Shown: piece after piece, positions 4,380-39,456 of the stretch
How positions within the stretch are numbered: the first letter of the stretch is position 1
How the letters are laid out: the number at the start of each line of letters is the position of its first letter
DNA from: an uncultured Bacteroides sp.
GTDB lineage: Bacteria; Bacteroidota; Bacteroidia; Bacteroidales; Bacteroidaceae
Assembly (NCBI GenBank): GCA_945607605.1
Contig: CALYZE010000012.1
Coordinates: 1 to 48,693 of the forward strand
Direction: 5' to 3'
DNA length: 48,693 nucleotides
The notes under the pieces: generated by a model
The model's database searches: none
What the model was told of the DNA's origin: nothing
What the model saw: the letters and a program-made list of their open reading frames with translations, nothing else
Made by a program: the position numbers and the translations under genes

Positions 4380-5675
4380 ATGAATAACTTACGTCATTGC
4401 TATACAGCATTGCTGTTGTATTTCTTTTTTGTTGTATCGGGACCACTTTCAGCACAGTCCTCCCTGCAACAACAGCTAAACAATATCCCTGCTATTACGG
4501 AAACCACTCTTTTGGAATCTACCCGGTTTTCCGAGAAGTATGTCACCTATTTCACACAACCGCTCGATCATAACCAACCCGAAAAAGGCAGTTTCCACCA
4601 ACGCGTCATTGTCTCTCATATTGGTTTTGACCGCCCTACAGTGATGGTTACCGAAGGTTATGGAGCTACTTATGCCCTCAACCCCAACTATCGTGAAGAA
4701 CTCTCCGAACTACTGGATGCTAACCTTATTTTTGTGGAACACCGCTACTTCCTTGAGTCCACTCCCAAGATAAAGGATTGGCAATATCTCACTGCTGAAA
4801 ACTCAGCAGACGATCTACATGCTATACGCAGTACCTTCAAAAACATCTATCCCGGGAAATGGATTGCCACAGGTATTAGCAAAGGCGGACAAACCACCTT
4901 ATTATATCGTACTTTCTATCCGGACGATGTAGATATCTCCGTTCCCTATGTGGCCCCGCTTTGCTATGCTACAGAAGACGGACGTCACGAACCTTTCCTA
5001 AAAAAAGTATCGACAGCCAAAGATCGCAAAAAGATTGAAGATTTCCAGTTGGAGGTATTGAAACGCAAAGCAACACTCCTTCCTCGTTTTGAGGAGTATT
5101 GCACGGAAAAAGAGTTGAAGTTTCGTGCTCCCATGGCTGAGATTTATGACTATTCAGTATTGGAATACTCTTTTGCTCTTTGGCAATGGGGAACACCTGT
5201 GAGTAGCATTCCTGCTACCACCGCATCTGATGATGAAATTTTCGCTCATCTACTTGCCATTAGCAATCCTAACTACTTCATTGCCGACAGTTCCATAGCC
5301 TCATTCTTTGTACAAGCTGCCCGTGAATTAGGTTATTACGGCTACGATGTAAAACCTTTCAAAAAGTATCTCTCCATCAAATCAAGTAAAGGCTATCTGC
5401 ACCGCTTGATGCTGCCCGAAGAGCTCAAAGACCTGCCTTTCGACAAGACATTAAGCCAAAATATTTCGAAATATCTAAAGGAAAATGATCCGAAAATGAT
5501 ATTTATTTACGGTGAAAACGATCCTTGGACAGCCGCTGGTGTCACTTGGTTAAAAAGGAAGAAGAATATTCACGTATTTGTTGAGCCCGGAGGCAGCCAC
5601 AAAGCACGTATCAGTACATTGCCCGAACCTAAAAAGAAGGAGGTCGTCGAGCTAATCAATGAGTGGCTAAAGTAA
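4380..5675 (+). CDS. Secreted S37-family serine (tripeptidyl-type) peptidase
   Basis: A 431-residue peptidase of the S37 (PS-10) family, alpha/beta-hydrolases that release short peptides from protein N-termini. The ATG at 4380 gives a clean signal peptide (hydrophobic core LLLYFFFVVSGPLSAQ, cleavage near residue 22); the longer frame from 4326 would run through the promoter. Likely catalytic residues: Ser167 in TGISKGGQT, Asp381 in GENDPW and His407 in GGSHKAR. An early oxyanion/folding block reads TEGYGATYAL. It is monocistronic, between two terminator or promoter boundaries. A periplasmic or cell-surface role in peptide scavenging is inference; the exact cleavage specificity cannot be read from sequence. 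Confidence 0.85.
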   Translation: MNNLRHCYTALLLYFFFVVSGPLSAQSSLQQQLNNIPAITETTLLESTRFSEKYVTYFTQPLDHNQPEKGSFHQRVIVSHIGFDRPTVMVTEGYGATYALNPNYREELSELLDANLIFVEHRYFLESTPKIKDWQYLTAENSADDLHAIRSTFKNIYPGKWIATGISKGGQTTLLYRTFYPDDVDISVPYVAPLCYATEDGRHEPFLKKVSTAKDRKKIEDFQLEVLKRKATLLPRFEEYCTEKELKFRAPMAEIYDYSVLEYSFALWQWGTPVSSIPATTASDDEIFAHLLAISNPNYFIADSSIASFFVQAARELGYYGYDVKPFKKYLSIKSSKGYLHRLMLPEELKDLPFDKTLSQNISKYLKENDPKMIFIYGENDPWTAAGVTWLKRKKNIHVFVEPGGSHKARISTLPEPKKKEVVELINEWLK

Positions 5676-6292: not shown

Positions 6293-6470
6293 GAGTCTAT
6301 GTTTTTTGCGAAGATACAGATTTATCCAGACAACTCCGCATGAAAACTTCGAAAAATCAATTTATCTTTTAAAACAAATCTTCCTCCTTTCGGCAGCGTG
6401 AAACCGAAGAGAGAAATGTATTACAGGATTTAAAGGATATAAAGATTATTAAGAAAAAAGTAAGTTTTAT

Positions 6471-6501
6471 TTTGGTGTTTCAAACATTATGTTTATATTT
6501 G
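6471..6501 (+). promoter_or_regulatory. trp operon promoter
   Basis: TTTG at 6471-6474 and TATATTTG at 6494-6501 are separated by exactly 19 bp, a full match to the Bacteroidota sigma-70 promoter pattern. Predicted transcription start is near 6508, which places the leader peptide start codon (6526) about 18 bases into the RNA. Confidence 0.85.
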
Positions 6502-6525
6502 CCCACGATAAAAACAAAAAAGATA

Positions 6526-6615
6526 ATGAAGACAATGTTCATAAATACAAATTGGTGGTGGCACTCTACAACTCCGACAGTCGTAAGGGAGCAGCGCTCG
6601 TATGTATATATGTAA
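6526..6615 (+). CDS. trpL: Tryptophan operon leader peptide (attenuator sensor)
   Basis: A 29-codon open frame starting ATG AAG ACA and ending ATG TAA. Codons 10-12 (6553-6561) are TGG TGG TGG, three consecutive tryptophans, followed by HSTTPTVVREQRSYVYM. It lies between a consensus promoter and a strong terminator hairpin directly ahead of trpB, the arrangement of a ribosome-stalling attenuator. When Trp-tRNA is scarce the ribosome should stall at 6553-6561 and leave 6574-6599 free for alternative pairing. When Trp is plentiful it would run to the stop at 6615 and let the terminator form. The frame is too short for routine gene finders and is not similar in sequence to the enteric TrpL. Confidence 0.88.
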   Translation: MKTMFINTNWWWHSTTPTVVREQRSYVYM

Positions 6616-6647
6616 TATATAATAAGGAAAATAAAAGAGCCCTGTCG
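6574..6647 (+). promoter_or_regulatory. Candidate antiterminator pairing of the trp attenuator
   Basis: CGACAG at 6575-6580, 14 bases after the last Trp codon, is exactly complementary to CTGTCG at 6642-6647 in the left arm of the terminator. CAGCGCTC at 6592-6599 can pair with GAGCCCTG (6637-6644) at 7 of 8 positions. Either pairing would open the terminator stem. GAGC/GCTC at 6589-6599 can also form a small local hairpin, possibly a pause signal. The structure is inferred by eye; no folding energies were calculated. Confidence 0.55.
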
Positions 6648-6676
6648 CACCTGCGACAGGGCTCTTTTATTTTACA
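6631..6676 (+). terminator. trp operon attenuator terminator
   Basis: A perfect 19-bp inverted repeat, 6631-6649 with 6652-6670, separated by only CC (so the innermost pairs probably open into a small loop), GC-rich in the middle and followed by a T-rich run. It lies 16 bases after the leader-peptide stop and about 80 bases before trpB, so as an ordinary terminator it would make no sense; as an attenuator it fits. Confidence 0.9.
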
Positions 6677-6747
6677 CCCATTCCTCCGTCTGCTCTCCAC
6701 AAGAGAGAGTTGGATAAAAAAAAGATAAAAATTTAAACTATAAAAAG

Positions 6748-7932
6748 ATGAGTTTCTTAGTTGACAAAGATGGTTATTACGGAGAATTCGGCGGAGCATA
6801 CATCCCCGAAATACTCCACAAATGTGTAGAAGAGTTACAGAACACCTATCTCAAAGTATTGCAAAGCGAAGACTTCAACCGCGAATACAATCAGTTGTTA
6901 CGCGACTATGTTGGACGTCCTTCTCCACTCTATCTGGCACATCGCTTGTCTCAGCAGTATGGTTGCAAGATTTACCTCAAACGTGAAGATTTGAATCACA
7001 CCGGTGCCCACAAAATCAATAATAGCATCGGCCAAATACTTTTGGCACGTCGTATGGGTAAACGTCGCATCATAGCCGAGACCGGTGCCGGGCAGCATGG
7101 AGTTGCTACCGCCACCGTTTGTGCTTTGATGAATATGGAGTGCATCATCTACATGGGAAAAACTGATGTAGAACGCCAGCATGTTAATGTGGAGAAGATG
7201 AAAATGCTGGGAGCAACTGTAATTCCGGTCACCAGTGGTAACATGACGTTGAAAGATGCTACCAATGAAGCCATCCGCGACTGGTGCTGTCATCCGTCGG
7301 ACACTTATTACGTCATCGGTTCTACCGTCGGACCCCATCCGTACCCCGATATGGTGGCACGCCTTCAATCTGTCATCAGCAAAGAAATCAAGAAACAGCT
7401 CCTCGAACAAGAAGGACGCGACTGTCCCGACTATCTCATAGCTTGTGTAGGCGGAGGAAGTAATGCAGCCGGCACCATCTATCACTACATTGATGATACA
7501 CGCGTACAGATTGTGCTTGCCGAAGCAGGTGGTAAGGGTATAGAAACAGGCATGACCGCAGCTACCATCGCTCTCGGTAAACTGGGCATCATTCACGGTG
7601 CACGCACCTATGTTATCCAAAATGAAGACGGTCAGATTGAAGAACCTTATTCCATTTCTGCCGGACTGGATTATCCGGGCATCGGCCCCATGCACGCCAA
7701 TCTTGCCGCACAGAAACGCGCCCTTGTCCTCTCCGTCAATGATGACGAAGCCATTCGCGCCGCCTACGAGCTGACAAGACTTGAAGGCATCATTCCCGCC
7801 CTTGAAAGCGCTCACGCACTCGGCGCATTGGAGAAAATGAAGTTCAAACCGGAGGATGTGGTGGTGTTGACCGTTTCAGGACGAGGAGACAAAGATATAG
7901 AGACGTATTTAAGTGATGAGTTATCTCTTTAA
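6748..7932 (+). CDS. trpB: Tryptophan synthase beta chain
   Basis: A 394-residue PLP enzyme that condenses indole with serine to give tryptophan, working as a heterotetramer with TrpA. Lys89 in [12 protein letters not shown] is the Schiff-base lysine; the phosphate-binding loop is [12 protein letters not shown]. The N-terminus ([16 protein letters not shown]) is that of the standard TrpB1 type. It is the first structural gene of the trp operon, directly after the attenuator, although it catalyses the last step of the pathway; trpA is the last gene, 4.7 kb away. All seven trp genes run in one direction with gaps of 17-86 bp. Confidence 0.97.
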
Positions 7933-7966: not shown

Positions 7967-9367
7967 ATGAAACCATTCCATTACCAGACCCTCAGCCGCA
8001 CCATACTCGGTGATCTTCACACTCCCGTAAGCACATATCTGAAAGTACGTGACATCTTTCCACAGAGTGTCCTGATGGAAAGTTCCGATTATCATAGCAG
8101 TGAAAACAATCGTTCATTCATCGGACTCTGTCCGGTGGCAAGCGTAAGTATCGATCACGGAACGGCCATCTTTCGCCTGCCCGACGGTACTCGTGAAGAA
8201 CGTTCGGTAACCGAAGAATACCGTGTAGAAAATGCTCTGGAAGAATTTTTGGCGTGTTTTCACGTGAAAGGTGAATACAGCAAGTATTGCGGACTTTACG
8301 GCTACACCTCTTTCAATGCAGTTCGTTATTTCGAAAACATTCCCGTTAAGGACAGCCGCGAAACGACCAATGATGCGCCTGATATGCTTTATATCTTATA
8401 CAAATACCTCATCGTCTTCAATGATTTCAAGAACGAGATGATGCTTTTAGAAATGCAGGCTCCCGGTGAAGCCAGCGAACTGGATACTGTACAGAAAGCG
8501 ATCTACAATCGTAACTATACCGCATACGACTTCCAGGCTGTAGGTGAAACCACCTCTTCCCTCACCGATGAAGAGCATAAGGAGAATATCCGTCAGGGCA
8601 TAACTCACTGTCTGCGTGGAGATGTTTTTCAAATCGTTCTCTCCCGTCGTTTCGAACAACCTTTTGTGGGTGACGACTTCAAACTTTACCGTGCCCTACG
8701 TAGCATCAACCCCTCTCCTTATCTGTTCTATTTTGATTTCGGCGGCTTCCGAATCTTTGGTTCCTCACCCGAAACTCATTGCCGCATCGAAGGCCGGCAC
8801 GCCTATATCGATCCCATTGCCGGAACCACCAAACGTACCGGAGATACCGAACAAGATGCTATCAACGCTCGTTATCTTCAGAATGATCCTAAGGAAAATG
8901 CCGAACACGTCATGTTGGTAGATTTAGCTCGCAACGACCTTTCCCGCAATTGTCGGGAAGTAAAAGTGGATTTCTACAAAGAGATGCAGTATTATAGCCA
9001 CGTCATCCACCTTGTCAGCCGAGTCAGCGGCACGTTACACGACGATGCCCACCCTATCAAAACCTTTATTGATACCTTTCCCGCCGGAACTTTGAGCGGT
9101 GCACCGAAAGTACGTGCCATGGAACTCATCAGCGAATTGGAACCGCACAACCGTGGAGCTTACGGTGGTTGCATCGGATTCATCGGTTTAAATGGTTCAC
9201 TAAATCAAGCTATTACCATTCGTACCTTTGTCAGCCGCAACGGTGTACTTTGGTTTCAGGCAGGAGGTGGTATAGTGGCCAAAAGCAATGAAGAATATGA
9301 GTTACAAGAGGTAAACAATAAGCTTGGCGCATTGAAAAAGGCTATTGTAATGGCTGAAAAAATGTAA
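7967..9367 (+). CDS. trpE: Anthranilate synthase component I
   Basis: A 466-residue chorismate-binding subunit; with TrpG it turns chorismate and glutamine into anthranilate. Features include the N-terminal LMESSD element (residues 36-41), which corresponds to the LLES feedback site for tryptophan in other TrpE proteins, and the C-terminal chorismate-binding core with IDPIAGTTKRTGD, LVDLARNDLSRN, FPAGTLSGAPKVRAMELI and the terminal block FQAGGGIVAKSNEEYE. The stretch FSGAP/LSGAPKVRA indicates a TrpE-type rather than a PabB-type protein, and the operon supports that. It lies 34 bp after trpB. Confidence 0.96.
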   Translation: MKPFHYQTLSRTILGDLHTPVSTYLKVRDIFPQSVLMESSDYHSSENNRSFIGLCPVASVSIDHGTAIFRLPDGTREERSVTEEYRVENALEEFLACFHVKGEYSKYCGLYGYTSFNAVRYFENIPVKDSRETTNDAPDMLYILYKYLIVFNDFKNEMMLLEMQAPGEASELDTVQKAIYNRNYTAYDFQAVGETTSSLTDEEHKENIRQGITHCLRGDVFQIVLSRRFEQPFVGDDFKLYRALRSINPSPYLFYFDFGGFRIFGSSPETHCRIEGRHAYIDPIAGTTKRTGDTEQDAINARYLQNDPKENAEHVMLVDLARNDLSRNCREVKVDFYKEMQYYSHVIHLVSRVSGTLHDDAHPIKTFIDTFPAGTLSGAPKVRAMELISELEPHNRGAYGGCIGFIGLNGSLNQAITIRTFVSRNGVLWFQAGGGIVAKSNEEYELQEVNNKLGALKKAIVMAEKM

Positions 9368-9403: not shown

Positions 9404-10006
9404 ATGGTAGTAATCATAGATAATTATGACTCTTTCACTTACAACCTCGCCCATCTAGTGAAAGAACTAGGCGTAGAAGTAGAGGTTTTGCGCAACGATC
9501 AATTCAAACTTGAAGAATTGGAACCCTACGAAAAGATTATCCTTTCTCCCGGCCCCGGCATCCCCGAAGAAGCAGGATTACTGCTGAATGTAATACGCAC
9601 CTATGCCGGACAAAAACCGATACTAGGCGTTTGCCTCGGTGAACAAGCTATCGGACAGGTGTTTGGAGGTAAGCTTATCAACCTGAGCAATGTTTTCCAC
9701 GGAATACAAACGAATGTGAAGATTCATAAGGAGGGAGAGGGTACTAAGAAGGGGATTCTTGAAAAAGATTATATCTTCCGTGGACTTCCCGAGGAAATAT
9801 CCGTAGGTCGTTATCATTCCTGGGTAGTAGATACGGAGCAGTTCCCCGAAGACTTAGCCGTAACCGCTGTCAGCCCTGAAGGTCAAATTATGGCATTGAA
9901 GCATCGAATTTATGATGTTCGAGGCATTCAGTTTCATCCAGAATCCATATTGACTCCAGATGGGAAAACCATTCTGAAGAACTGGCTTTTCAATGATATA
10001 TCTTAG
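9404..10006 (+). CDS. trpG: Anthranilate synthase component II (glutamine amidotransferase)
   Basis: A 200-residue class I glutamine amidotransferase supplying ammonia to TrpE. Cys77 in ILGVCLGEQAIG is the nucleophile, and the His/Glu pair is in RGIQFHPESIL. The N-terminus IIDNYDSFTYNL and the oxyanion block LSPGPGIPEEAG are standard. The residue after the GVCLG core is Glu where His or another polar residue is more usual; the position is variable and the catalytic triad is complete, so the enzyme should be active. It is a separate gene here, not fused to trpD or trpE. The same subunit may also serve para-aminobenzoate synthesis, which cannot be decided here. Confidence 0.95.
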   Translation: MVVIIDNYDSFTYNLAHLVKELGVEVEVLRNDQFKLEELEPYEKIILSPGPGIPEEAGLLLNVIRTYAGQKPILGVCLGEQAIGQVFGGKLINLSNVFHGIQTNVKIHKEGEGTKKGILEKDYIFRGLPEEISVGRYHSWVVDTEQFPEDLAVTAVSPEGQIMALKHRIYDVRGIQFHPESILTPDGKTILKNWLFNDIS

Positions 10007-10092: not shown

Positions 10093-11091
10093 ATGAAGAC
10101 GATCTTATCCCGTCTCTTCAATCACGAAGAGCTTACTTCGGAGGATGCCAAACAGATTCTCCTAAACATAACCAAAGAAAAATATCCGGAGGCTCAGATA
10201 GCCGCCTTACTCACTGTTTTCCAAATGCGTAGCATTACAGTTGACGAACTTATTGGTTTTCGAGAAGCATTGATGGAAACCCGTATTCCGATAGACTTCT
10301 CTCCCTATCAGCCCATCGACATTGTGGGTACTGGGGGGGATGGTAAGAATACATTTAACATCTCTACCTGCGCCTGTTTTATTGTAGCGGGCGCCGGATA
10401 CAAAGTAGCCAAACATGGTAATTACGGAGCCACTTCCGTCAGTGGGGCCAGCAATGTCATCGAACAACACGGCGTGCGTTTCAGCAACGATTCCGACTTA
10501 CTGAAACGCAGCATGGAGGAATGCAATATGGCCTATCTGCACGCCCAATTATTCAATCCGGCTATGAGATTTGTGGGATCTGTTCGCAAGGCATTAGGAG
10601 TGCGTACCTTGTTCAATCTGCTCGGCCCATTGGTTAACCCTTGCAAACCAACTTATCAACTACTCGGTGTAGCCGACCTTTCACAGATGCGTCTTTATAC
10701 CAATGTATTCTATAAATTAGGTATAGACTTTGCCGTAGTCAACAGTCTCGACAGCTATGATGAAATCTCCCTGACCGATGAATTCAAGGTCATGACGCGC
10801 CATTACGAACGCATCTATCGCCCGCAGGCACTCGGATTCAGAGATGCACACCCCGAAGAACTCTTCGGAGGAGCTTGCAAGGAAGATGCTGCCCGGATCT
10901 TCGATAATATTCTGACCAACCGTGCCACGCCCGCCCAGACACAATGTGTTATCGTCAATGCTGCTTTTGCCATTCAAGTAATGGAGCCTCAAAAAGAAAT
11001 TGAAGAGTGCATCGCCATCGCACGCGAATCGCTAGAAAGCGGACGAGCATTGCAGGTGCTGAAAAAATTCATAGAAATAAATAAAGGATGA
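10093..11091 (+). CDS. trpD: Anthranilate phosphoribosyltransferase
   Basis: A 332-residue enzyme joining anthranilate to phosphoribosyl pyrophosphate. The PRPP-binding loop GTGGDGKNTFNIST starts at residue 79, followed by KHGNYGATSVSGASNVIEQHG and the LGPLVNPCKP block of the family. The N-terminal helical domain (residues 1-70, EELTSEDAKQILLNI) is present, and the length is normal. The 86-bp gap before it is the widest inside the trp operon, but no terminator or consensus promoter is visible there. Confidence 0.96.
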   Translation: MKTILSRLFNHEELTSEDAKQILLNITKEKYPEAQIAALLTVFQMRSITVDELIGFREALMETRIPIDFSPYQPIDIVGTGGDGKNTFNISTCACFIVAGAGYKVAKHGNYGATSVSGASNVIEQHGVRFSNDSDLLKRSMEECNMAYLHAQLFNPAMRFVGSVRKALGVRTLFNLLGPLVNPCKPTYQLLGVADLSQMRLYTNVFYKLGIDFAVVNSLDSYDEISLTDEFKVMTRHYERIYRPQALGFRDAHPEELFGGACKEDAARIFDNILTNRATPAQTQCVIVNAAFAIQVMEPQKEIEECIAIARESLESGRALQVLKKFIEINKG

Positions 11092-11130: not shown

Positions 11131-11943
11131 ATGAAAGATATATTATCGGAAATCATAGCTCATAAACAGACGGAGATCGCATTGCAAAAACAAACTATCT
11201 CCCTGCAGCAACTACGCGAACAGGCTGCAGTCATTCTGCATGAAAACACAAACCCTCCTCGCAGCATGAAGCAGTCACTGGCAACCTCTTCCACAGGTAT
11301 CATTGCCGAGTTCAAACGTCGCTCTCCCTCCAAAGGATGGATCAATGAACTTGCCAAGGCAGAAGAGATTCCAGCAGCTTACGAAGCTGCAGGTGCCTCC
11401 GCTCTCTCCATACTGACTGACGAGAAATACTTCGGCGGTTCTTTGCGTGATATCCGTGCGGCACGTCCGCTTGTCCACATTCCCATCCTACGTAAAGATT
11501 TCATCATTGATGAATACCAGCTTCTGCAAGCTCGCATTGTCGGTGCTGATGCCGTATTGCTCATTGCCGCCTGCCTCAGCCCGGAACAATGCAACGCTCT
11601 CACGTTCTGTGCTCATGAGTTAGGTTTAGAGGTATTGCTCGAGATTCACACTCCTTCGGAACTCTCTTATATTTATAAGGAGATAGACATGGTGGGCGTC
11701 AACAATCGTAATCTCGGTACTTTTGTCACTGATGTGGAAAACTCTTTCCGGATAGCCGAACAACTCCGTGAAGTTACCAATAGTTCACAATCTCCGCTGT
11801 TGATATCCGAAAGTGGCATCTCTCACCCCGATACTCTTCGGGATTTGCGCACAGCCGGTTACCGCGGTTTCCTTATGGGGGAAACTTTCATGAGAAAAGC
11901 AAGTCCCAGTGAGGCACTACAAGAAATAATCAATAGCAAATAG
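11131..11943 (+). CDS. trpC: Indole-3-glycerol-phosphate synthase
   Basis: A 270-residue (beta/alpha)8-barrel enzyme that closes the indole ring from carboxyphenylamino-deoxyribulose phosphate. Diagnostic motifs are IAEFKRRSPSKGWIN (about residues 58-72, with the catalytic Lys and Ser), LRKDFIIDEYQL, GVNNRNLGTF and the phosphate site ISESGISHPDTL. It is a stand-alone TrpC; trpF follows as its own gene after 17 bp, unlike the TrpC-TrpF fusion of enterobacteria. Confidence 0.96.
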   Translation: MKDILSEIIAHKQTEIALQKQTISLQQLREQAAVILHENTNPPRSMKQSLATSSTGIIAEFKRRSPSKGWINELAKAEEIPAAYEAAGASALSILTDEKYFGGSLRDIRAARPLVHIPILRKDFIIDEYQLLQARIVGADAVLLIAACLSPEQCNALTFCAHELGLEVLLEIHTPSELSYIYKEIDMVGVNNRNLGTFVTDVENSFRIAEQLREVTNSSQSPLLISESGISHPDTLRDLRTAGYRGFLMGETFMRKASPSEALQEIINSK

Positions 11944-11960: not shown

Positions 11961-12572
11961 ATGACTCCTCTCATCAAAGTATGTGGAATGACTGAAGCGG
12001 AAAACATCCGCAGTGTAGAACAACAAGGTGTAGATATGATTGGTTTCATCTTCTACCCCAAGTCGCCTCGTTGCTTGTGCGAAATGCCCGAGTATCTGCC
12101 CATTCATTCCAAACGTGTCGGTATCTTTGTCAACGAAAGTAAGGAAGATATTCTTATGTATGTCGACCGTTTCGAGCTGGACTATATTCAACTACATGGT
12201 TCTGAATCTCCCGAATATTGTCGTTCTCTGCAAAGCTATGGCCTGCATCTCATCAAAGCGTTTTCCATCTCCCATCTGAAAGATTTGTTGGCCACTGCAG
12301 ATTACAAAGGGCTATGTGACTACTACCTTTTCGATACCAAAACTCCCCAATATGGTGGTTCGGGAAACCAGTTTGACTGGAATCTACTGTATCGTTACAA
12401 AGGCTCTACCCCTTTCTTGCTTAGTGGAGGCATCAATCCTTACAGCGTAAAAGCAATCAAAGAGTTTCATCATCCTCGTTTTGCAGGCATCGATCTCAAC
12501 AGTCGCTTCGAAACAGTACCGGGAATCAAAGATGTGGAACGCATCGAAATATTTTTGAAAGAACTTAGATAG
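11961..12572 (+). CDS. trpF: Phosphoribosylanthranilate isomerase
   Basis: A 203-residue barrel enzyme isomerising phosphoribosyl-anthranilate. The N-terminal IKVCGMTEAENI carries the catalytic Cys (residue 8), the general acid Asp is in FDTK/IDLNSRFE, and the phosphate site is FLLSGGINPYSVKAI. The length is normal for a free-standing TrpF. The 17-bp gap to trpC suggests translational linkage. Confidence 0.95.
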   Translation: MTPLIKVCGMTEAENIRSVEQQGVDMIGFIFYPKSPRCLCEMPEYLPIHSKRVGIFVNESKEDILMYVDRFELDYIQLHGSESPEYCRSLQSYGLHLIKAFSISHLKDLLATADYKGLCDYYLFDTKTPQYGGSGNQFDWNLLYRYKGSTPFLLSGGINPYSVKAIKEFHHPRFAGIDLNSRFETVPGIKDVERIEIFLKELR

Positions 12573-12644: not shown

Positions 12645-13427
12645 ATGAAACTAAACCGCATTAATCAGCTTTTTCAAAATAATCCCAAGAATCTGCTGTC
12701 CATTTACTTCTGCGCCGGAAGTCCTACGCTTGAAAGCACAGCCAATGTGATTCGTACCCTCGAAAGAAATGGTGTGAATATGATAGAAATCGGAATTCCA
12801 TTCAGTGATCCGATGGCCGACGGCATCGTTATTCAGAATGCTGCTACCCGAGCCCTCCAGAACGGCATGTCCCTCCGTATTCTTTTTAATCAATTGCAAG
12901 ACATTCGCCACGAAGTCCGTATTCCACTCATTCTGATGGGTTATCTTAATCCTATCATGAAATTCGGCTTCGAAAGTTTCTGCCAGAGATGTGTAGAATG
13001 TGGCATCGACGGTGTGATCATTCCCGATCTTCCTTTTAAAGATTATGAGGAAACCTATAAAACCATTGCTCTAAAGTACGACATTCGTATCATCATGCTC
13101 ATCACTCCCGAAACCAGCGAAACTCGTGTGCGCGAAATAGATGCCCATACCGACGGATTCATTTATATGGTCTCCAGTGCCGCCACCACGGGTGCGCAAC
13201 AAGATTTTGATATTCAGAAGCAAGCCTACTTCAAAAAGATAGAAGATATGCACTTGCACAATCCACGCATGGTAGGCTTCGGCATCAGTAATCAGCAAAC
13301 TTTCGATGCTGCCTGCGCCAACTCCTCCGGTGCTATCATCGGTAGCCGTTTCGTAACTTTACTAAACGAAACTGAAGGAGATGCAGAGAAGGCAATTAAA
13401 AAGTTGAAAGAGGAGATTGGAAGGTAG
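12645..13427 (+). CDS. trpA: Tryptophan synthase alpha chain
   Basis: A 260-residue barrel enzyme that releases indole from indole-3-glycerol phosphate and channels it to TrpB. Glu48 and Asp59 in MIEIGIPFSDPMADG match the catalytic Glu49 and Asp60 of Salmonella TrpA, and the phosphate site reads VGFGISNQQTF. It is the last gene of the trp operon, followed by a small terminator. Confidence 0.96.
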   Translation: MKLNRINQLFQNNPKNLLSIYFCAGSPTLESTANVIRTLERNGVNMIEIGIPFSDPMADGIVIQNAATRALQNGMSLRILFNQLQDIRHEVRIPLILMGYLNPIMKFGFESFCQRCVECGIDGVIIPDLPFKDYEETYKTIALKYDIRIIMLITPETSETRVREIDAHTDGFIYMVSSAATTGAQQDFDIQKQAYFKKIEDMHLHNPRMVGFGISNQQTFDAACANSSGAIIGSRFVTLLNETEGDAEKAIKKLKEEIGR

Positions 13428-32762: not shown

Positions 32763-33938
32763 CCCCTCCGTTCCATGAACAGTGTGTATGAAACGCTTGT
32801 TTGCCTCCTTCAGACGAAAAAGATTGATGGTCATCAAAAGAAATGAATGAGGAATTAGAAAAGTAGCCTTTACCAGTCGGAGCGTCCAATAGCGACGTGG
32901 AATGGCTATGGCTAAAGCCAACAGTAACCATCCGAACAAAAGCCACCATTTGAGGCTCCTTGCCGGATCTACCACAGAGCTACAGATGGCCAATATGAAT
33001 ACAAAACCCAACAAGAGAACCCTAGAAAGAGAAACTTGCTGATAGAGTTTATCACAAAAATCCCACTTTTTTGTACGAATGGCAGGCAGAAGATGGTGTA
33101 TAAATTCTCCTATGCTATAATATTGTGCCGATAGCCACCGACGGCGTTGTTGATAGAAGTTACGTGTTTTTTGTATCTTCTCGTCCCTAACAAGCGTATC
33201 GGGTAAATAATGAAAACGCACTCCTTTGTAAAGTAGCTTCATCTCTAGCACTCGGTCGAAACCACCTACGGAAGTATTGGCCATCATCGCTTCGTAAAAC
33301 AATCGGTATTCAAAGGCCATGCCCGAACCTATCAGAGCAGCCGACATGCCCAGATTGACGTGTCCCAAACGAAAAATGGAGTTGTTTATCTCTTCGCTGA
33401 TGGCATCTAGGTATGCCATATTGGTATTCAGGTTCTTGGCCACGCGGTGGGTTTGCACGACCTGCACTCCGGAAATAGCAAAAGCGTTGTTCACTTCAGA
33501 CAGATAAGTGGGATTGATGAGGTTATCTGCGTCTATTACTAATGCCAAGTCATAGGCATTCTGGTCCAGATAACGAAGGGCAGTCTTCAGTGATTTGGTA
33601 TTTGTACTTTTTTCAAAATTCACTTCAAGCAGCTTAATGGGAAGCGCAGAGAGGGCTGCATTCGTTTGAGGTTGCATGTGGTCGGAGATCACCACTACAT
33701 CAAATTTATCGGTTGGATAGTTCTGTGCCAAACAAGCACGCACAGTAGCCATGATTACGGCATCTTCACGATAGGCGGCAATGAGTACCGCAAAGCGTTG
33801 ATAACTCGTTGTTGCCACAGGCACAGGAGGTTTGCGACACAATGAAGCCACACTATACACCAGCAAATACACCACATTTATGGCAAACACAATGTATAGA
33901 AGCCAATCAAATATATGTAATAGATATTCCAAAATCAC
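32757..33938 (-). CDS. Membrane glycosyltransferase family 2 (intact paralogue)
   Basis: A 393-residue processive-type GT2 enzyme: N-terminal membrane helix at about residues 8-33, GT-A domain with LVIDADNLINP (D136-A-D138) and QQRRRWLSAQY (Q264-x-x-R267-W268), and C-terminal membrane helices from about 300 on. Motifs and topology match enzymes that build or extend a polysaccharide at the inner membrane. It is a clear paralogue of the protein at 23663-24856, which has lost both motifs. It is transcribed alone, from a consensus -7 element at 34000-33993, against the main operon. Confidence 0.85.
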   Translation of the reverse strand: MILEYLLHIFDWLLYIVFAINVVYLLVYSVASLCRKPPVPVATTSYQRFAVLIAAYREDAVIMATVRACLAQNYPTDKFDVVVISDHMQPQTNAALSALPIKLLEVNFEKSTNTKSLKTALRYLDQNAYDLALVIDADNLINPTYLSEVNNAFAISGVQVVQTHRVAKNLNTNMAYLDAISEEINNSIFRLGHVNLGMSAALIGSGMAFEYRLFYEAMMANTSVGGFDRVLEMKLLYKGVRFHYLPDTLVRDEKIQKTRNFYQQRRRWLSAQYYSIGEFIHHLLPAIRTKKWDFCDKLYQQVSLSRVLLLGFVFILAICSSVVDPARSLKWWLLFGWLLLALAIAIPRRYWTLRLVKATFLIPHSFLLMTINLFRLKEANKRFIHTVHGTEGS

Positions 33939-33992
33939 GTCATTTAGTGTTGTGGTTCACTCTACAGAAAGCTCTGCTTCGGACCTTGGTCG

Positions 33993-34000
33993 CAAAGATA
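33993..34000 (-). promoter_or_regulatory. -7 element (TATCTTTG) for the convergent glycosyltransferase gene
   Basis: On the minus strand this reads TATCTTTG, an exact TAnnTTTG match 55 bp before the start codon at 33938. No -33 TTTG is seen 19 bp upstream. Confidence 0.65.
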
Positions 34001-34095
34001 CAAAAAACTAAATGCGTTTTGAGAAGTTGAGAAAAAAGATGTCAAGGAATAAAAAATAAAAAACGAGTAAGCTCTCACGAACCTCTCGCCTCTGT

Positions 34096-34123
34096 AAGAA
34101 AAGCCTCAATGGCTTTTCTTTTT
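34096..34123 (+). terminator. Plus-strand intrinsic terminator without an adjacent plus-strand gene
   Basis: AAGAAAAGCC (34096-34105) pairs perfectly with GGCTTTTCTT (34111-34120) around TCAAT, and continues into T residues to 34123. On the minus strand the hairpin is not followed by a T-run, so it is directional. The nearest plus-strand gene end is 1.3 kb upstream. Confidence 0.65.
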
Positions 34124-34162
34124 AATCACATCTAATTGTTATCCAAAAATCAATCTTTCTCT

Positions 34163-34315
34163 TACCTCTAAAACCTTCTATTACCTAAAACTGAAAACAT
34201 CTAAATTCAATCTTTACCTTTATACCTAATTACCTAATCTTATCATTAATTATTTTAGCTTATGAAAAAATGAATCCTTTTACCTAAAACTAATTTCCTT
34301 TTGTACTGAAAACAT
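34163..34315. repeat. AT-rich segment with repeated TACCT words
   Basis: TACCT occurs at 34163, 34182, 34215, 34223, 34231 and 34281 in the plus orientation. The 11-mers TACCTAAAACT (34182-34192 and 34281-34291) and ACTGAAAACAT (34190-34200 and 34305-34315) each occur twice; they overlap in the first copy and are 13 bp apart in the second. Confidence 0.5.
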
Positions 34316-34477
34316 ATTCTTTACAGTTTCACAACTGCATTACAAAGGTAAGATCTTTTTTCGTGTTCGCAAACAGTAGCCTACTTTTAGGTATATTTTC
34401 TAACATAGTTTTAGAATTTAAGCGTACTATTTACACTAATAAACATTTTATTCGGTAGATGCTACTAAAATAAACAA

Positions 34478-34512
34478 ACCACCGAAGCACCGTAGCACTT
34501 CGATGGTTGTCC
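34478..34512 (-). terminator. Terminator after eda
   Basis: ACCACCGAAG and CTTCGATGGT form a stem with 9 of 10 pairs around a 10-base loop at about 34480-34509. On the minus strand it is followed by a T-rich stretch (GGTTTGTTTATTTT). It lies about 35 bp beyond the eda stop. Confidence 0.7.
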
Positions 34513-34544
34513 CTTTTAAACACCTTTAAACAAAATGAAGATTC

Positions 34545-35213
34545 TTATTTTCTTGCCTGGGCAATGTATGCCAAGGCTTCTTTACATTTTTCTGTAACGT
34601 AATTCCAGTCTTCTGCAGCTACCTTATCGCTCGGGAAAAGTTTAGAGCCCATGCCTACGCAGAATACACCTGCTTTGATCCATGAGTTCAAGTTTTCCTG
34701 CGTGGGTTCTACACCGCCGGTCACCATCAATTTAGACCAAGGCATCGGAGCCAATAACCCTTTCACGAGTTTAGCACCCAGCACATCACCCGGGAAAACT
34801 TTGCAGAGATCGCAGCCAACTTCTTGTGCAAAACCTACTTCTGAAACGCTTCCACATCCCGGAGTATAGGCTACCAAACGGCGGTTACAAATCTTGGCAA
34901 TTTCCGGATTGAACAACGGACCTACCACGAAGCAAGCTCCTAATTGTAAGTAGAGCGCTGCGGTTGCAGGATCAACAATAGAGCCCACACCCATAGCCAT
35001 TTCAGGACATTCTTTGGCAGCATACTTCACTACTTCTCCAAACACTTCGTGAGCAAAGTCGCCACGGTTTGTAAATTCAAACGCACGAACTCCACCTTCA
35101 TAACATGCCTTTACCACTTTCTTTGCTACTTCTGCATCTTTATGATAGAATACAGGAACCATGCCGGTAGAACCGATTTTGGTCAGTACGGCTATTTTGT
35201 CAAATTTTGCCAT
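34545..35213 (-). CDS. eda: 2-keto-3-deoxy-6-phosphogluconate aldolase
   Basis: A 222-residue class I aldolase that splits KDPG into pyruvate and glyceraldehyde-3-phosphate. [14 protein letters not shown] holds the catalytic Glu, [10 protein letters not shown] the Schiff-base Lys, and [17 protein letters not shown] and [12 protein letters not shown] the phosphate site. MAKFDK at 35213 is taken as the start; an in-frame ATG 15 bp upstream (35228) has a GAGG eight bases before it and is a fair alternative. It lies 114 bp after kdgK on the same strand and completes the hexuronate route begun by uxaA. Confidence 0.93.
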
Positions 35214-35327
35214 TTTCTTATTCAGCATCCTCTATTCCTCAAAAGAAAAAGAAGAGGATTATTCTTTTAATTATTACTTGAATTATTCAAAAAGTATTCT
35301 CTGTTTGCTTAGAGAAAGAAACAGAAT

Positions 35328-36353
35328 TTATCTCTGTACGCGTCCGCTAGCATCTCCTCCGGCCAATGCTTCCACTTCCTCTACAGAAACAAGGTTGAAG
35401 TCGCCGTTGATAGTGTGCTTCAAGGCAGAAGCAGCAACTGCAAATTCAAGGGCAGCAGCTTGGTTGGGTTTAGTCATTAACCCGTGGATGACACCACCGG
35501 AGAAAGAGTCGCCACCACCTACACGGTCAACGATGGGATTGACATCGTAACGTTTGGATTCATAAAACTCTGTACCGTTGTAAATCATTGCCTTCCAACC
35601 ATTGTGAGATGCCGAGAATGATTCACGTAAAGTAGAGATTACATATTTAAAACCAAATTCCTTAGCCATCGCTTTGAAAATGCCCTTGTAACCTTCAGCA
35701 TCTGTCTTGCCGCCTTCTACGTCAGCGTCGGGTTTGAAACCGAGACAGAGTTCAGCGTCTTCTTCGTTGCCGATGCATACATCTACAAACTGCATCAAAG
35801 GTTTCATGATGGACTGAGCTTTCTCTTTGGTCCAAAGTTTCTTACGGAAGTTAAGGTCAACAGACACCGTCACACCATGACGCTTAGCAGCTTCACAAGC
35901 CAAACGAGTCAGTTCGGCAGCCTTGTCAGAGATAGCGGGAGTAATACCTGACCAATGGAACCAATCGGCACCTTTCATGATGGCATCAAAATCGAAGTCT
36001 GAAGCATCCGCCTCTGCAATGGAAGAATGTGCACGGTCATAGATAACCTTGCTGGGGCGCATAGAGGCACCAGACTCTAGATAGTAGATACCTACACGGT
36101 CACCGCCACGTGCGATGAAATCCGTATTCACACCATACTTGCGTAAAGCATTTACTGCCGATTGTCCGATTTCGTGTTTAGGCAATTTGGTTACAAAATA
36201 AGCATCATGTCCATAGTTGGCACAACTGACAGCTACGTTAGCTTCACCGCCACCATACACTACATCAAAAGAATCAGACTGTACAAAACGAGTGTTCCCC
36301 GGAGTGGACAATCTCAGCATGATTTCACCTAATGTAACTACTTTCTTTCCCAT
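35328..36353 (-). CDS. kdgK: 2-keto-3-deoxygluconate kinase
   Basis: A 341-residue PfkB-family sugar kinase that phosphorylates KDG to KDPG. N-terminal GEIMLRLSTPGNTRF and YGGGEANVAVSCANYG bind the sugar, and the C-terminal DRVGGGDSFSGGVIHGL carries the catalytic Asp and the anion hole. KDG as substrate follows from the neighbours: KDPG aldolase downstream and altronate dehydratase across the divergent promoter. A palindromic operator covers its predicted transcription start, so repression by the LacI protein encoded next door is likely. Its leader RNA also contains an imperfect hairpin at 36442-36479. Confidence 0.92.
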   Translation of the reverse strand: MGKKVVTLGEIMLRLSTPGNTRFVQSDSFDVVYGGGEANVAVSCANYGHDAYFVTKLPKHEIGQSAVNALRKYGVNTDFIARGGDRVGIYYLESGASMRPSKVIYDRAHSSIAEADASDFDFDAIMKGADWFHWSGITPAISDKAAELTRLACEAAKRHGVTVSVDLNFRKKLWTKEKAQSIMKPLMQFVDVCIGNEEDAELCLGFKPDADVEGGKTDAEGYKGIFKAMAKEFGFKYVISTLRESFSASHNGWKAMIYNGTEFYESKRYDVNPIVDRVGGGDSFSGGVIHGLMTKPNQAAALEFAVAASALKHTINGDFNLVSVEEVEALAGGDASGRVQR

Positions 36354-36441
36354 AATCTTTTATTTTTTATTAAATATGAAATTAATTTGTATCCTTTCAA
36401 TTTATCACACCCAGGCTTAAATGCATGATAAACAACTGATA

Positions 36442-36479
36442 CTATGAGAGTAAAGTCAAAAAGAGATTACTCTTCATAG
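36442..36479 (-). other. Imperfect inverted repeat in the kdgK leader
   Basis: CTATGAGAGTAA (36442-36453) and TTACTCTTCATAG (36467-36479) pair with a single-base bulge around a 13-base loop. It lies between the predicted kdgK transcription start and its ATG, so it would be part of the mRNA leader; it could also be a second regulator site. Confidence 0.4.
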
Positions 36480-36485
36480 CTTCCG

Positions 36486-36497
36486 TGTGCGGGCACA
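36486..36497. promoter_or_regulatory. Operator O1 over the kdgK promoter
   Basis: TGTGC-GG-GCACA is a perfect interrupted palindrome. It overlaps the minus-strand -7 element (36503-36496) and predicted start of the kdgK transcript. It shares GGGCACAA with the second site at 36565-36580. LacI-family dimers bind sites of this kind; the binding protein is inferred to be the one encoded at 36732. Confidence 0.65.
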
Positions 36498-36524
36498 AAG
36501 ATACAACAATTTTTGAAATACAAA
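36496..36524 (-). promoter_or_regulatory. kdgK-eda promoter
   Basis: On the minus strand TATCTTTG lies at 36503-36496 and TTTG at 36524-36521, 17 bp apart (slightly short of the usual 19). The transcription start would be near 36489, inside operator O1. Confidence 0.65.
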
Positions 36525-36541
36525 AAATTATCATATATTTG
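36512..36541 (+). promoter_or_regulatory. lacI-type regulator/uxaA promoter
   Basis: TTTG at 36512-36515 and TATATTTG at 36534-36541, 18 bp apart. The -33 elements of this and the divergent kdgK promoter cross over each other (36512-36515 and 36521-36524), so two polymerases could hardly bind together. Predicted start near 36548. Confidence 0.7.
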
Positions 36542-36564
36542 TGTCGAAAATATTAAGATTATTA

Positions 36565-36580
36565 TTGTGCACGGGCACAA
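36565..36580. promoter_or_regulatory. Operator O2 downstream of the regulator promoter
   Basis: TTGTGC-ACGG-GCACAA is a perfect 6+6 palindrome. It lies about 17-32 bases downstream of the predicted start of the regulator-uxaA transcript, a roadblock position fitting autoregulation. The half-site GGGCACAA is identical to O1. Confidence 0.7.
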
Positions 36581-36731
36581 GGTGCCTTATTATTTGACGA
36601 ATGACCATTTACTGTTTGATATTCTAAAATTCATGCATGCTGATTCGTGATTCAGGAGTTAAGAAGCAGAAGCCAAATCATCAAATAGTAAATCATAAAC
36701 AGTAAACTAAAATAGGATAGTAAATAAATAG

Positions 36732-37790
36732 ATGGCAGAAAGAATCAGAATAAAAGATATCGCCAAGATGGCGGATGTGTCTGTGGGTACGGTGGACCGT
36801 GTGATCCATGGACGCAGCGGCGTTTCCGAAGCCAGCCGAAAGCGAGTAGAGGAAATCCTCAAGCAGTTGGACTATCAGCCCAACATGTATGCCAGCGCAC
36901 TGGCTTCCAACAAGAAATATACTTTTGCCTGCTTGCTGCCTATGCACGAAAAGGGCGAATATTGGACAGATGTAGAAATTGGCATTGAAGACGCAGTGAC
37001 AACTTACTCCGACTTTAACGTGGCCGTACAGCTCTCCTACTACGATCCGTACGATTATCATTCTTTCGTTCAAGTTTCCAACAATATTTTGGAACTGGCT
37101 CCGGACGGGGTTATGTTTGCTCCTACCGTTCCGCAATACACCAAGCCGTTTACGGAGAAGCTGGCCAACCTGCATATACCTTATATATATATAGACTCGA
37201 ACATCAAAGAAGAACCTGCTCTCTCCTACTTTGGACAAGACTCAAACCAAAGCGGATATTTTGCCGCTCGTATGCTGATGCTACTGGCTGGTGAAGAGGC
37301 GCAAGAGATTGTTATCTTCCGTAAACTGAATGCAGGTATTGTAGGCTCTAACCAACAGGAACGTCGCGAAATCGGTTTCCGTGAATACATGAAGGAACAC
37401 CATCCTGCGTGCCGCATTTGGGAATTAGACTTGCACGCCAAACGTGACAGCGAGGATACGCAGATGTTAGACGAGTTCTTCGCCAGCCACCCGACGGTGA
37501 AAAACGGTATCACCTTCAATTCAAAAGCCTATATCATCGGAGAATACCTGTTGAAGATACAGAAAAAGGGATTTAATCTCATGGGCTACGACTTATTGCA
37601 ACGCAATGTAGAGTGTCTCATGCAAGGCAGCATATTCTTCCTCATCGCTCAGCAACCCACTTTGCAAGGATTCGACGGTATCAAAGCTTTATGCGAACAC
37701 CTCATTCTAAAGAAGGAAGTGACCCGCGAGAACTTCATGCCTATTGACTTGCTCACCAAAGAGAATATAGAATTTTATTATAATAAATAA
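36732..37790 (+). CDS. LacI-family transcriptional regulator of hexuronate genes
   Basis: A 352-residue regulator. Residues 1-60 hold the LacI helix-turn-helix and hinge: IRIKDIAKMADVSVGTVDRVIHGRSGVSEASRKRVEEILKQLDYQPN is typical apart from the D-R pair where many have S-R. The rest is a periplasmic-binding-protein-like effector domain. It is transcribed divergently from kdgK and 5 bp ahead of uxaA, with two palindromic sites between. The effector is probably an intermediate of altronate/KDG breakdown, an inference from the neighbours only. Confidence 0.9.
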   Translation: MAERIRIKDIAKMADVSVGTVDRVIHGRSGVSEASRKRVEEILKQLDYQPNMYASALASNKKYTFACLLPMHEKGEYWTDVEIGIEDAVTTYSDFNVAVQLSYYDPYDYHSFVQVSNNILELAPDGVMFAPTVPQYTKPFTEKLANLHIPYIYIDSNIKEEPALSYFGQDSNQSGYFAARMLMLLAGEEAQEIVIFRKLNAGIVGSNQQERREIGFREYMKEHHPACRIWELDLHAKRDSEDTQMLDEFFASHPTVKNGITFNSKAYIIGEYLLKIQKKGFNLMGYDLLQRNVECLMQGSIFFLIAQQPTLQGFDGIKALCEHLILKKEVTRENFMPIDLLTKENIEFYYNK

Positions 37791-37795
37791 CTGAT

Positions 37796-39289
37796 ATGTT
37801 GGAAACAAAATACTTAAAAATCAACCCTGCTGATAACGTTGCAGTAGCTATTGCTGCATTGTCTGCCGGTGAAAAGCTCACAGTGGACGGACAGGAAATT
37901 ACCTTAAACGAAGATATTCCTGTGGGACATAAATTTGCCCTGAAAGATTTAGCCGAAGGTGAAAATGTACTCAAATACGGTTACCCTATCGGACACACTC
38001 AGAAGGCACAGAAACAAGGTGATTGGATGAATGAAAACAACATCAAAACCAACCTTGCCGGAGTATTGGAGTATAGCTACAATCCCGTAAACGCTGATTT
38101 GGATATCCCCCAAAAGGATCTAACCTTCAAAGGCTACCGACGTAAAAACGGTGATGTAGGCGTTCGTAACGAAATTTGGATTATCCCAACAGTAGGTTGC
38201 GTAAACGGCATCATCAACCAGCTTGCCGAAGGCTTGCGTCGTGAAACAGGTGGAAAAGGCGTGGATGCCATCATGGCCTATCCTCACAACTATGGTTGTT
38301 CACAATTGGGTGATGACCATGAAAACACCAAGAAAATTCTGCGTGACATGGTGTTGCACCCTAATGCAGGTGCCGTACTTGTGGTAGGTCTGGGCTGCGA
38401 AAACAACCAGCCGGATGTCTTCCGCGAATTTTTAGGAGAGTACGACCAAGACCGTGTAAAGTTCATGTTAACACAAAAAGTGGGTGATGAATATGAAGAA
38501 GGTATGCAGATTTTACGCGAACTTTATGCCAAAGCGAGTCAAGATCAACGCGCAGACGTTCCATTGAGTGAATTGCGCGTAGGTTTGAAGTGTGGCGGTT
38601 CAGACGGTTTCTCCGGCATCACTGCCAATCCATTGCTAGGCATGTTCTCCGACTTCCTCGTGGCACAAGGTGGTACAAGTGTCCTAACCGAAGTGCCTGA
38701 AATGTTTGGCGCCGAGACCATCCTGATGAACCGTTGTCGCAACAAAGAACTGTTCAAAGAAACCGTAAGTCTGATCAACGATTTCAAGGAATATTTCCTT
38801 TCGCATGGCGAACCGGTAGGCGAGAATCCTTCTCCGGGCAACAAAGCCGGCGGCATTTCCACCCTCGAAGACAAAGCATTGGGATGTACGCAAAAATGTG
38901 GTAAGAGTTATGTAGAAGGGGTACTACCCTATGGTGAGCGTCTGAAAGTAAAGGGATTAAACCTCCTCTCTGCTCCAGGCAATGATCTCGTAGCCTCTAC
39001 TGCCCTCGCCTCTTGTGGTTGTCACATCGTATTGTTCACCACAGGCCGCGGAACCCCGTTCGGAACCTACGTACCGACCATGAAGATTTCAACCAACTCT
39101 ACTTTAGCTAAGAACAAACCCGGATGGATTGACTTCAACGCCGGCGTAATCGTAGAGAATGAACCTATGGAAAAGACCTGCGAACGTTTCATTGAGTATG
39201 TCATCAGCGTTGCCAGCGGTGAACTTGTCAACAATGAGAAGAAGGGATATAAAGAAATATCAATCTTCAAGACAGGAGTAACATTGTAA
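37796..39289 (+). CDS. uxaA: Altronate dehydratase
   Basis: A 497-residue enzyme converting D-altronate to 2-keto-3-deoxygluconate. Residues 1-90 form the small SAF-type domain (INPADNVAVAIAALSAGEKL...GHKFALKDLAEGE, then KYGYPIGHTQKA). The large domain holds FKGYRRKNGDVGVRNEIWIIPTVGCVNG, NYGCSQLGDDHENT and VVGLGCENNQP, and the conserved cysteines in LKCGGSDGFSGITANP and STALASCGCHIVLFTTGRGTPFG. It begins 5 bp after the LacI gene and ends at a strong terminator. The isomerase (uxaC) and altronate oxidoreductase (uxaB) needed upstream are not in the window. Confidence 0.95.
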   Translation: MLETKYLKINPADNVAVAIAALSAGEKLTVDGQEITLNEDIPVGHKFALKDLAEGENVLKYGYPIGHTQKAQKQGDWMNENNIKTNLAGVLEYSYNPVNADLDIPQKDLTFKGYRRKNGDVGVRNEIWIIPTVGCVNGIINQLAEGLRRETGGKGVDAIMAYPHNYGCSQLGDDHENTKKILRDMVLHPNAGAVLVVGLGCENNQPDVFREFLGEYDQDRVKFMLTQKVGDEYEEGMQILRELYAKASQDQRADVPLSELRVGLKCGGSDGFSGITANPLLGMFSDFLVAQGGTSVLTEVPEMFGAETILMNRCRNKELFKETVSLINDFKEYFLSHGEPVGENPSPGNKAGGISTLEDKALGCTQKCGKSYVEGVLPYGERLKVKGLNLLSAPGNDLVASTALASCGCHIVLFTTGRGTPFGTYVPTMKISTNSTLAKNKPGWIDFNAGVIVENEPMEKTCERFIEYVISVASGELVNNEKKGYKEISIFKTGVTL

Positions 39290-39406
39290 ATAAAGAGCTT
39301 GAAAATGATCATTATTTAATGATTGATCATTAAATGATTGGACAAAAAATCCTCCGTTTATCATTTAAAAGCTTTCAGTTTAAAAGAGAAATTAAATTCT
39401 GATTTG

Positions 39407-39446
39407 GAGAGCGGTACAAAATTGTTTTGTGCCGCTCTCGTTTTTT
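39407..39446 (+). terminator. Terminator after uxaA
   Basis: A 15-bp stem between 39407-39421 and 39425-39439, with one G-U type pair, followed by G and six T residues (39441-39446). The innermost pairs probably open to give a normal loop. Confidence 0.88.
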
Positions 39447-39456
39447 CATACCTTTG
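39426..39456 (+). promoter_or_regulatory. Consensus promoter reading into repeat element A
   Basis: TTTG (39426-39429) and TACCTTTG (39449-39456) are exactly 19 bp apart. The -33 part lies in the right arm of the uxaA terminator. Predicted start is near 39463, five bases before the first hairpin of element A, with no gene in front of it for 640 bp. Confidence 0.5.

Follow-up and report, generated by a model that had tools for sequence, protein, structure and literature searches.

The segment ahead of the tryptophan biosynthesis genes of an uncultured Bacteroides sp. raises the question of whether it acts as a ribosome-mediated attenuator and, if so, which base pairing keeps the terminator from forming when a ribosome stalls on the leader. 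The segment lies in a stretch of 48,693 nucleotides (the window, analysed at its full length) from a 2.65-Mb assembly of 116 contigs. The reading favoured here, with a probability of about three in four, is that of a ribosome-mediated transcription attenuator of the Bacteroid-trp family, in which a conserved strand of the leader (strand 2) clamps the terminator loop and the top of the terminator 3' arm. The following parts and genes were located.

6471..6501, plus strand: Bacteroidota-type promoter TTTG-N19-TATATTTG, composed of TTTG at 6471-6474, a 19-base spacer and TATATTTG at 6494-6501 (sequence, pattern scan)
6506..6646, plus strand: match to the Rfam family RF01692, Bacteroid-trp (99.7 bits, gathering cut-off 49)
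6526..6615, plus strand: leader peptide MKTMFINTNWWWHSTTPTVVREQRSYVYM of 29 codons, from ATG at 6526 to the stop codon TAA at 6613-6615 (orthologous leaders)
6553..6561, plus strand: three tandem Trp codons (TGG), codons 10-12, the putative stall site (sequence; conserved in relatives)
6562..6573, plus strand: strand 1, predicted partner of strand 2 when the ribosome is absent from it (folding; lies within the hairpin modelled by Rfam)
6580..6588, plus strand: strand 2, GUCGUAAGG, the candidate switch element (comparison, folding, covariation)
6591..6599, plus strand: second antiterminator strand, GCAG.GCUC, predicted partner of the terminator 5' arm at 6637-6645 (nascent folding)
6629..6648, plus strand: terminator 5' arm (sequence, terminator scan)
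6649..6652, plus strand: terminator loop, ACCT (sequence, terminator scan)
6650..6657, plus strand: clamp target of strand 2, CCUGCGAC, part of the loop and the top of the 3' arm (folding; covariation in relatives)
6653..6673, plus strand: terminator 3' arm and U tract, the latter TTTTATTTT at 6665-6673 (sequence, terminator scan)
6748..7932, plus strand: trpB, the first structural gene (TIGR00263, 583.5 bits, cut-off 392)
7967-9367, plus strand: trpE (family match)
9404-10006, plus strand: trpG (family match)
10093-11091, plus strand: trpD (family match)
11131-11943, plus strand: trpC (family match)
11961-12572, plus strand: trpF (family match)
12645-13427, plus strand: trpA (family match)

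The promoter and the 29-codon leader with Trp at codons 10-12 were found as claimed in the original prediction. The terminator is likewise present, its length having been given as 19 bp; 20 pairs were counted in the hairpin of 6629-6672, with a U-rich stretch at 6665-6673. The terminator scan reported this hairpin for the minus strand only, the U run of the plus strand being counted into the stem. TTTG and TANNTTTG are what we take to be the Bacteroidota promoter consensus, and transcription would be expected to start at about 6507-6509. The pattern TTTG-N16..22-TANNTTTG was matched seven times in the window against 2.1 times expected, one of the seven being the trp promoter. Among loci with distinct upstream DNA, the -7 motif TANNTTTG was found within 120 bases 5' of the Trp codons in 89 of 90 genus and all 29 named loci, as well as in 51 of 52 family, 15 of 17 order and all 28 phylum-sample loci. 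The other six matches to the pattern are situated at 33701-39456 of the window, and two of them, at 36496-36524 (minus strand) and 36512-36541 (plus strand), overlap on opposite strands between long open reading frames.

Protein-family matches gave the gene order trpBEGDCFA behind the leader. TrpB, TrpG, TrpD, TrpC and TrpA scored above at least one curated cut-off, while TrpE and TrpF showed strong E-values, yet stayed below the curated cut-offs. Among the 80 named loci kept, Bacteroides fluxus has the TrpB nearest to that of the window (94% identity). The locus carries what defines a ribosome-mediated attenuator in general, namely an intrinsic terminator behind leader codons for the amino acid that the operon makes, and predicted folding alone gave mutually exclusive folds set by the position of the ribosome. 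The attenuator upstream of a trp operon, with distances fitting a stall-and-switch mechanism, was supported as originally proposed, and it is conserved in relatives.

The suggestion that this attenuator might be new was not upheld, since it belongs to a catalogued RNA family. RF01692 (E = 3.1e-12 for the whole window) was the sole Rfam match above a curated cut-off in the whole window, so that the T-box riboswitch family was not matched; for the enteric Trp_leader, RF00513, no match was found in 6300-6800 at E values up to 1 (16 matches in total). The window shares with RF01692 the leader open reading frame, the leader hairpin and the location 5' of trp genes. The E. coli trp attenuator works with a leader hairpin, a hairpin terminator and three ribosome positions, and the present locus resembles it in these respects and in its tandem Trp codons. 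A peptide of 29 codons is too short for its dissimilarity to the enteric TrpL to prove an independent origin. The family is described in Rfam as 'Bacteroidete tryptophan peptide leader RNA' and was published in 2010 by Weinberg et al. (PMC2864571, Table 1). A 2019 paper on Flavobacterium psychrophilum placed a Bacteroid-Trp RNA upstream of the trp operon, as in the window, and likened its structure to that of the E. coli attenuator; the passage on this RNA gives no switch pairing (PMC6414381). The Rfam match ends at model position 131, which corresponds to 6646 of the window and lies inside the terminator 5' arm, so the model holds neither the complete terminator nor an antiterminator, and the clamp falls outside it. 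Searches of the open-licence literature found no published description of a Bacteroid-trp antiterminator.

The genus sample comprised 99 genomes. Of these, 90 had trpB and 73 had RF01692, and 72 of the 73 also carried trpB, the exception being G333. Under stricter search filters, RF01692 was found in 71 of 301 family, 20 of 247 order and 30 of 296 phylum genomes. Diverged members are missed by the Rfam model, as was seen in the genus trpB upstream regions. For the 91 trpB matches of the genus, 88 upstream regions were fetched (a fragment in G315, a second fragment in G347 and a match of 47% identity in G091 were left out), and 84 of these were long enough to be judged, contig ends having cut those of L035, L049, L067 and L075. 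A short open reading frame with WW, WWW or WxW was retained in 82 of the 84 regions, and the loss of the tandem Trp codons with the terminator kept, which the original prediction had named as evidence against it, was at most weakly seen (2/84). In these two loci, L088 and L109, a single Trp codon is preceded by TTG or TGT where relatives have TGG, and the hairpin is kept.

Seven RF01692 sites do not lie before trpB, and six of them precede, as judged by family match, trpD (L030, L159 and a second site in L131), trpG (L119) or a PRK12391-type TrpB-like gene (L120 of G333 and L139 of G267). The L131 site, at 5146-5283 in G202, is a second attenuator in one trp cluster besides the one before trpB. 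In L154 (G078), the leader stands before a distant TrpB relative of 29% identity. Because G333 gave no match to the TrpB of the window at 1e-80, its TrpB-like gene hints at an enzyme serving tryptophan synthesis there. In leaders of genus g13 (L121, L124, L128, L130, L134 and others), Phe-Phe-Trp-Trp replaces Trp-Trp-Trp, and these leaders perhaps share a response to Phe.

The wiring of the switch was approached through strand 2, GUCGURAG, which has two partners: strand 1, and the terminator loop together with the top of the 3' arm. The leader hairpin of strands 1 and 2 was predicted with at least four pairs in 39 of 40 genus representatives. As the target in the loop and 3' arm, Phocaeicola-type sequences have CUUACGAC and the Flavobacterium-like family has UCACGAC, with CUCACGAC, CUUACGGU, CUCACAA and others elsewhere. 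One sequence per genus was taken for tests over 41 genera, which cover every genus with a family, order or phylum match. In the MAFFT alignment of these genera, 89.8% of the clamp cells were paired compared to 85.3% after shuffling (0/500); two-sided changes were counted in 22 cells compared to 6.2 (0/500), and the clamp pairs showing such changes numbered five compared to 2.2 (6/500). Slid controls of the clamp were paired in 26-53% of cells. RNAalifold, unprompted, returned five pairs for the alignment, all of them clamp pairs, at a weak total energy of -0.68 kcal/mol. These shuffle tests leave the relatedness among the sequences in.

Duplex energies were compared as well. A first test with shuffled leaders gave z < -1.5 in 54 of 129 cases for the loop and 3' arm and in 19 of 129 for the 5' arm, a result that led to permutation tests with swapped partners. 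Over the 41 genera, the leader paired with its own loop and 3' arm at -10.59 kcal/mol versus -8.94 kcal/mol for permuted partners (0/2000 as good), and with its own 5' arm at -6.55 versus -6.58 kcal/mol (1089/2000 as good). The strong conservation of the motif let swapped leaders, too, pair with the loop and 3' arm (76% of 328 cases). When the partners of this pairing were permuted, none of 300 permutations was as good for all 184 distinct sequences, nor for the family (47 sequences) and order (17) sets, and 3/300 were as good for the phylum sample (26). Within the genus set (71 sequences; 85/300) and the named set (23 sequences; 44/300) the result was not significant, as the motif hardly varies there. 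The sequence support for the clamp is thus weaker within Bacteroides itself, and its covariation lies outside Bacteroides. The window sequence alone could not decide between the two pairings, its duplex energies being close (-12.4 for the 5' arm, -11.1 for the loop and 3' arm) and not separating the two models.

The base at R of URA and its opposite in the loop formed 69 distinct pairs, divided into 31 A-T, 24 G-C, 13 G-T, one G-G and no A-C. On the clamp reading, the switch base is also a base of the stop codon, which would leave UAA and UGA as the sole forms of URA, with U or C following suit in the terminator loop. The count of pairs rests on 165 of 271 loci, as two had no GTRA and 104 no T.RC loop anchor; 96 of the 104 come from the genus or named sets and carry loops like ACCT, ACCAA or AACC. 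Of 286 loci, 15 gave no leader plus terminator, leaving the 271, and the terminator finder overlooked L045 and L112, whose hairpins are visible in their sequences. The leader finder favoured TCGT[AG]A, by which the presence of the element was slightly selected for, and its pairing with the loop was not. L250 and L284 do not fit the clamp. A genome-wide terminator motif was also considered as the cause of the conserved apex, and rejected: TGTCGC-N3..6-GCGACA occurs at two sites only in the genome of the window, the second with a different loop. AGTCGTAAGG occurs three times in this genome. At the level of sequence and comparison, then, the parts of the locus, their conservation and the covariation of the clamp are established.

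The states of the switch were predicted from folds of nascent RNA in which five bases of the 3' arm had emerged, at least four pairs being counted as a clamp. For a ribosome whose front lay 12 or 15 bases beyond the final Trp codon, the clamp was predicted in 39 of 41 genera, compared to 37 with the front at 6 or 9; with the front level with the end of that codon (0) it was predicted in 25 and missing in 16, and at +3 it was missing in 10. It was predicted in five of the 41 genera without a ribosome and in one with the ribosome at the stop codon. By set, the clamp in the stalled state was predicted in 68/83 genus, 21/28 named, 49/49 family, 15/16 order and 26/28 phylum-sample sequences. Shuffled leaders reached it in 12-35%, their sets being grouped otherwise (the genus set includes the 80 named loci, with Phocaeicola and Parabacteroides too, and is without L119 and L120). 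In six cases followed base by base, the clamp predominated up to the emergence of 7 to 10 bases of the 3' arm, after which the full terminator won; as the full terminator wins at equilibrium, the clamp model depends on timing. About a dozen or more bases at the growing end of the RNA are hidden in the polymerase, and 7 to 10 exposed bases would be about where the decision falls.

For the window, the predicted stalled fold combines 6580-6588 with 6650-6657, with one bulged A in strand 2, and 6591-6599 with 6637-6645. Once the RNA had emerged as far as 6657, the clamp was predicted for all ribosome fronts examined (0 to +15); with RNA exposed to 6656 it was predicted for a stall at codon 12 and not at codon 11, for which one further base was needed. 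When the same procedure was applied to six attenuators of E. coli K-12, no clamp was predicted (0/6). For trp, thr and leu, the 5'-arm pairing was recovered as known, and the pairs with the loop and 3' arm at five exposed bases were 0.0, 1.1 and 0.2; for his, phe and ilv, the stall placement gave no antiterminator of at least four pairs, leaving only the former three informative. In these three the leader takes the terminator 5' arm, while in Bacteroid-trp it is additionally predicted to clamp the loop and the top of the 3' arm. By comparison and prediction, the antiterminator is accordingly not confined to the terminator 5' arm as it is in the enteric class.

The three states of the switch, as shown by predicted folding only, would work as follows. 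With ample charged tRNA-Trp, the ribosome would move past the Trp codons and cover strand 2 (6580-6588), and without translation strand 2 would be folded back on strand 1 (6562-6573). In either case the hairpin of 6629-6672 would form and transcription would stop before trpB. Upon tryptophan shortage, the ribosome would stall at 6553-6561, cover strand 1 and free strand 2, which would then clamp the loop and the first bases of the 3' arm (6650-6657) as they leave the polymerase, and meanwhile the next stretch of the leader (6591-6599) would hold the 5' arm (6637-6645). The hairpin, unable to nucleate from its loop, would let the polymerase read on into trpBEGDCFA. The clamp would in this way lower termination, the switch would respond to tryptophan, and the locus probably turns the tryptophan synthesis genes on when tryptophan is short.

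One difficulty for this reading comes from the frame of the leader. Conservation of the bases 3' of the Trp codons is strong at the RNA level (many Bacteroides have CAACTCCGACAGTCGTAAGG, more distant relatives GTCGTGAG). Of 182 distinct leaders, 144 use the TRA of GTCGTRA as their stop codon, and in 147 the last Trp codon is separated from URA by 21 or 24 bases. This in-frame stop is absent in the window, where UAA at 6584-6586 is out of frame and translation ends 29 bases downstream, shortly before the terminator. The leader of the window, with CACTCTACAAC, has two bases fewer after the Trp codons than that of L042, with CACTCGTTACAAC, and the exact leader DNA was not found in another genome, in a search from which near-identical genomes may have been omitted. 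The loss of two bases could thus be a sequencing or assembly slip or the mark of a decayed leader. We consider this unlikely, as GTCGTRA is out of frame in 32 of the 182 leaders, 15 of which, including the window, read at least 25 bases beyond it (in the remaining 6 the frame is right and the stop comes earlier). Such long leaders occur in both other frames with the switch element still present, for instance in Phocaeicola coprocola DSM 17136 (L226). The occurrence of the same RNA in three frames argues, from sequence, that this stretch is kept for base pairing rather than for the peptide.

Other readings concern the pairing itself. The original prediction followed the textbook enteric arrangement, in which CGACAG (6575-6580) would sequester CTGTCG (6642-6647) of the 5' arm upon stalling. 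The exact six-base complementarity is a fact of the window, and with RNA out to 6648 or 6652 folding predicted this pairing when the stall was placed at codon 12; with the stall at codon 11 it was not predicted, and at codon 12 the clamp replaces it once 6656 is exposed. CGACAG is shared by 18 of 71 distinct leader/terminator sets of the genus, but it is missing in the other 53, in 20 of 23 named sets (present in 3) and in all 90 beyond, and over the 41 genera the pairing stayed at the level of shuffled sequences (48.7% vs 48.3% paired; 233/500 as good). As the antiterminator of the family it was rejected, and as that of the window it appears improbable; the folds suggest that it may act as an early step in the sub-group of the window, and it could be a recent gain confined to some Bacteroides. 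It is about as doubtful, if slightly more so, that the complementarity of strand 2 and the loop is real but serves pausing or RNA stability, with antitermination left to the stretch after strand 2 and the 5' arm. The leader does pair with the 5' arm in the predicted stalled folds (6.65 pairs on average); this complementarity, unlike that of the clamp, is not genome-specific in the permutations described above. An ordinary terminator beside a chance reading frame with WWW, lacking any regulation, would agree with the symmetry of the hairpin, which could end transcripts on both strands; against the RF01692 score, the conservation and the trp gene context, it is hardly credible. On sequence comparison and predicted folds, the clamp is better supported than CGACAG:CTGTCG, and its wiring is unlike the enteric one.

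Beyond this locus, it seems reasonably probable that the trp attenuators of the Bacteroidota form a structurally distinct class, in which GUCGURAG, usually together with the leader stop codon, clamps the emerging loop and the top of the 3' arm, so that antitermination would work by blocking nucleation of the hairpin and not by only hiding the 5' arm. The interest lies in this wiring and not in the locus, the family having been known since 2010 (PMC2864571). If the clamp is true, attenuation can work through partners competing for the terminator loop and 3' arm, as a switch that depends on timing, and the clamp would be indirect evidence for a ribosome closely trailing the RNA polymerase in Bacteroidota.
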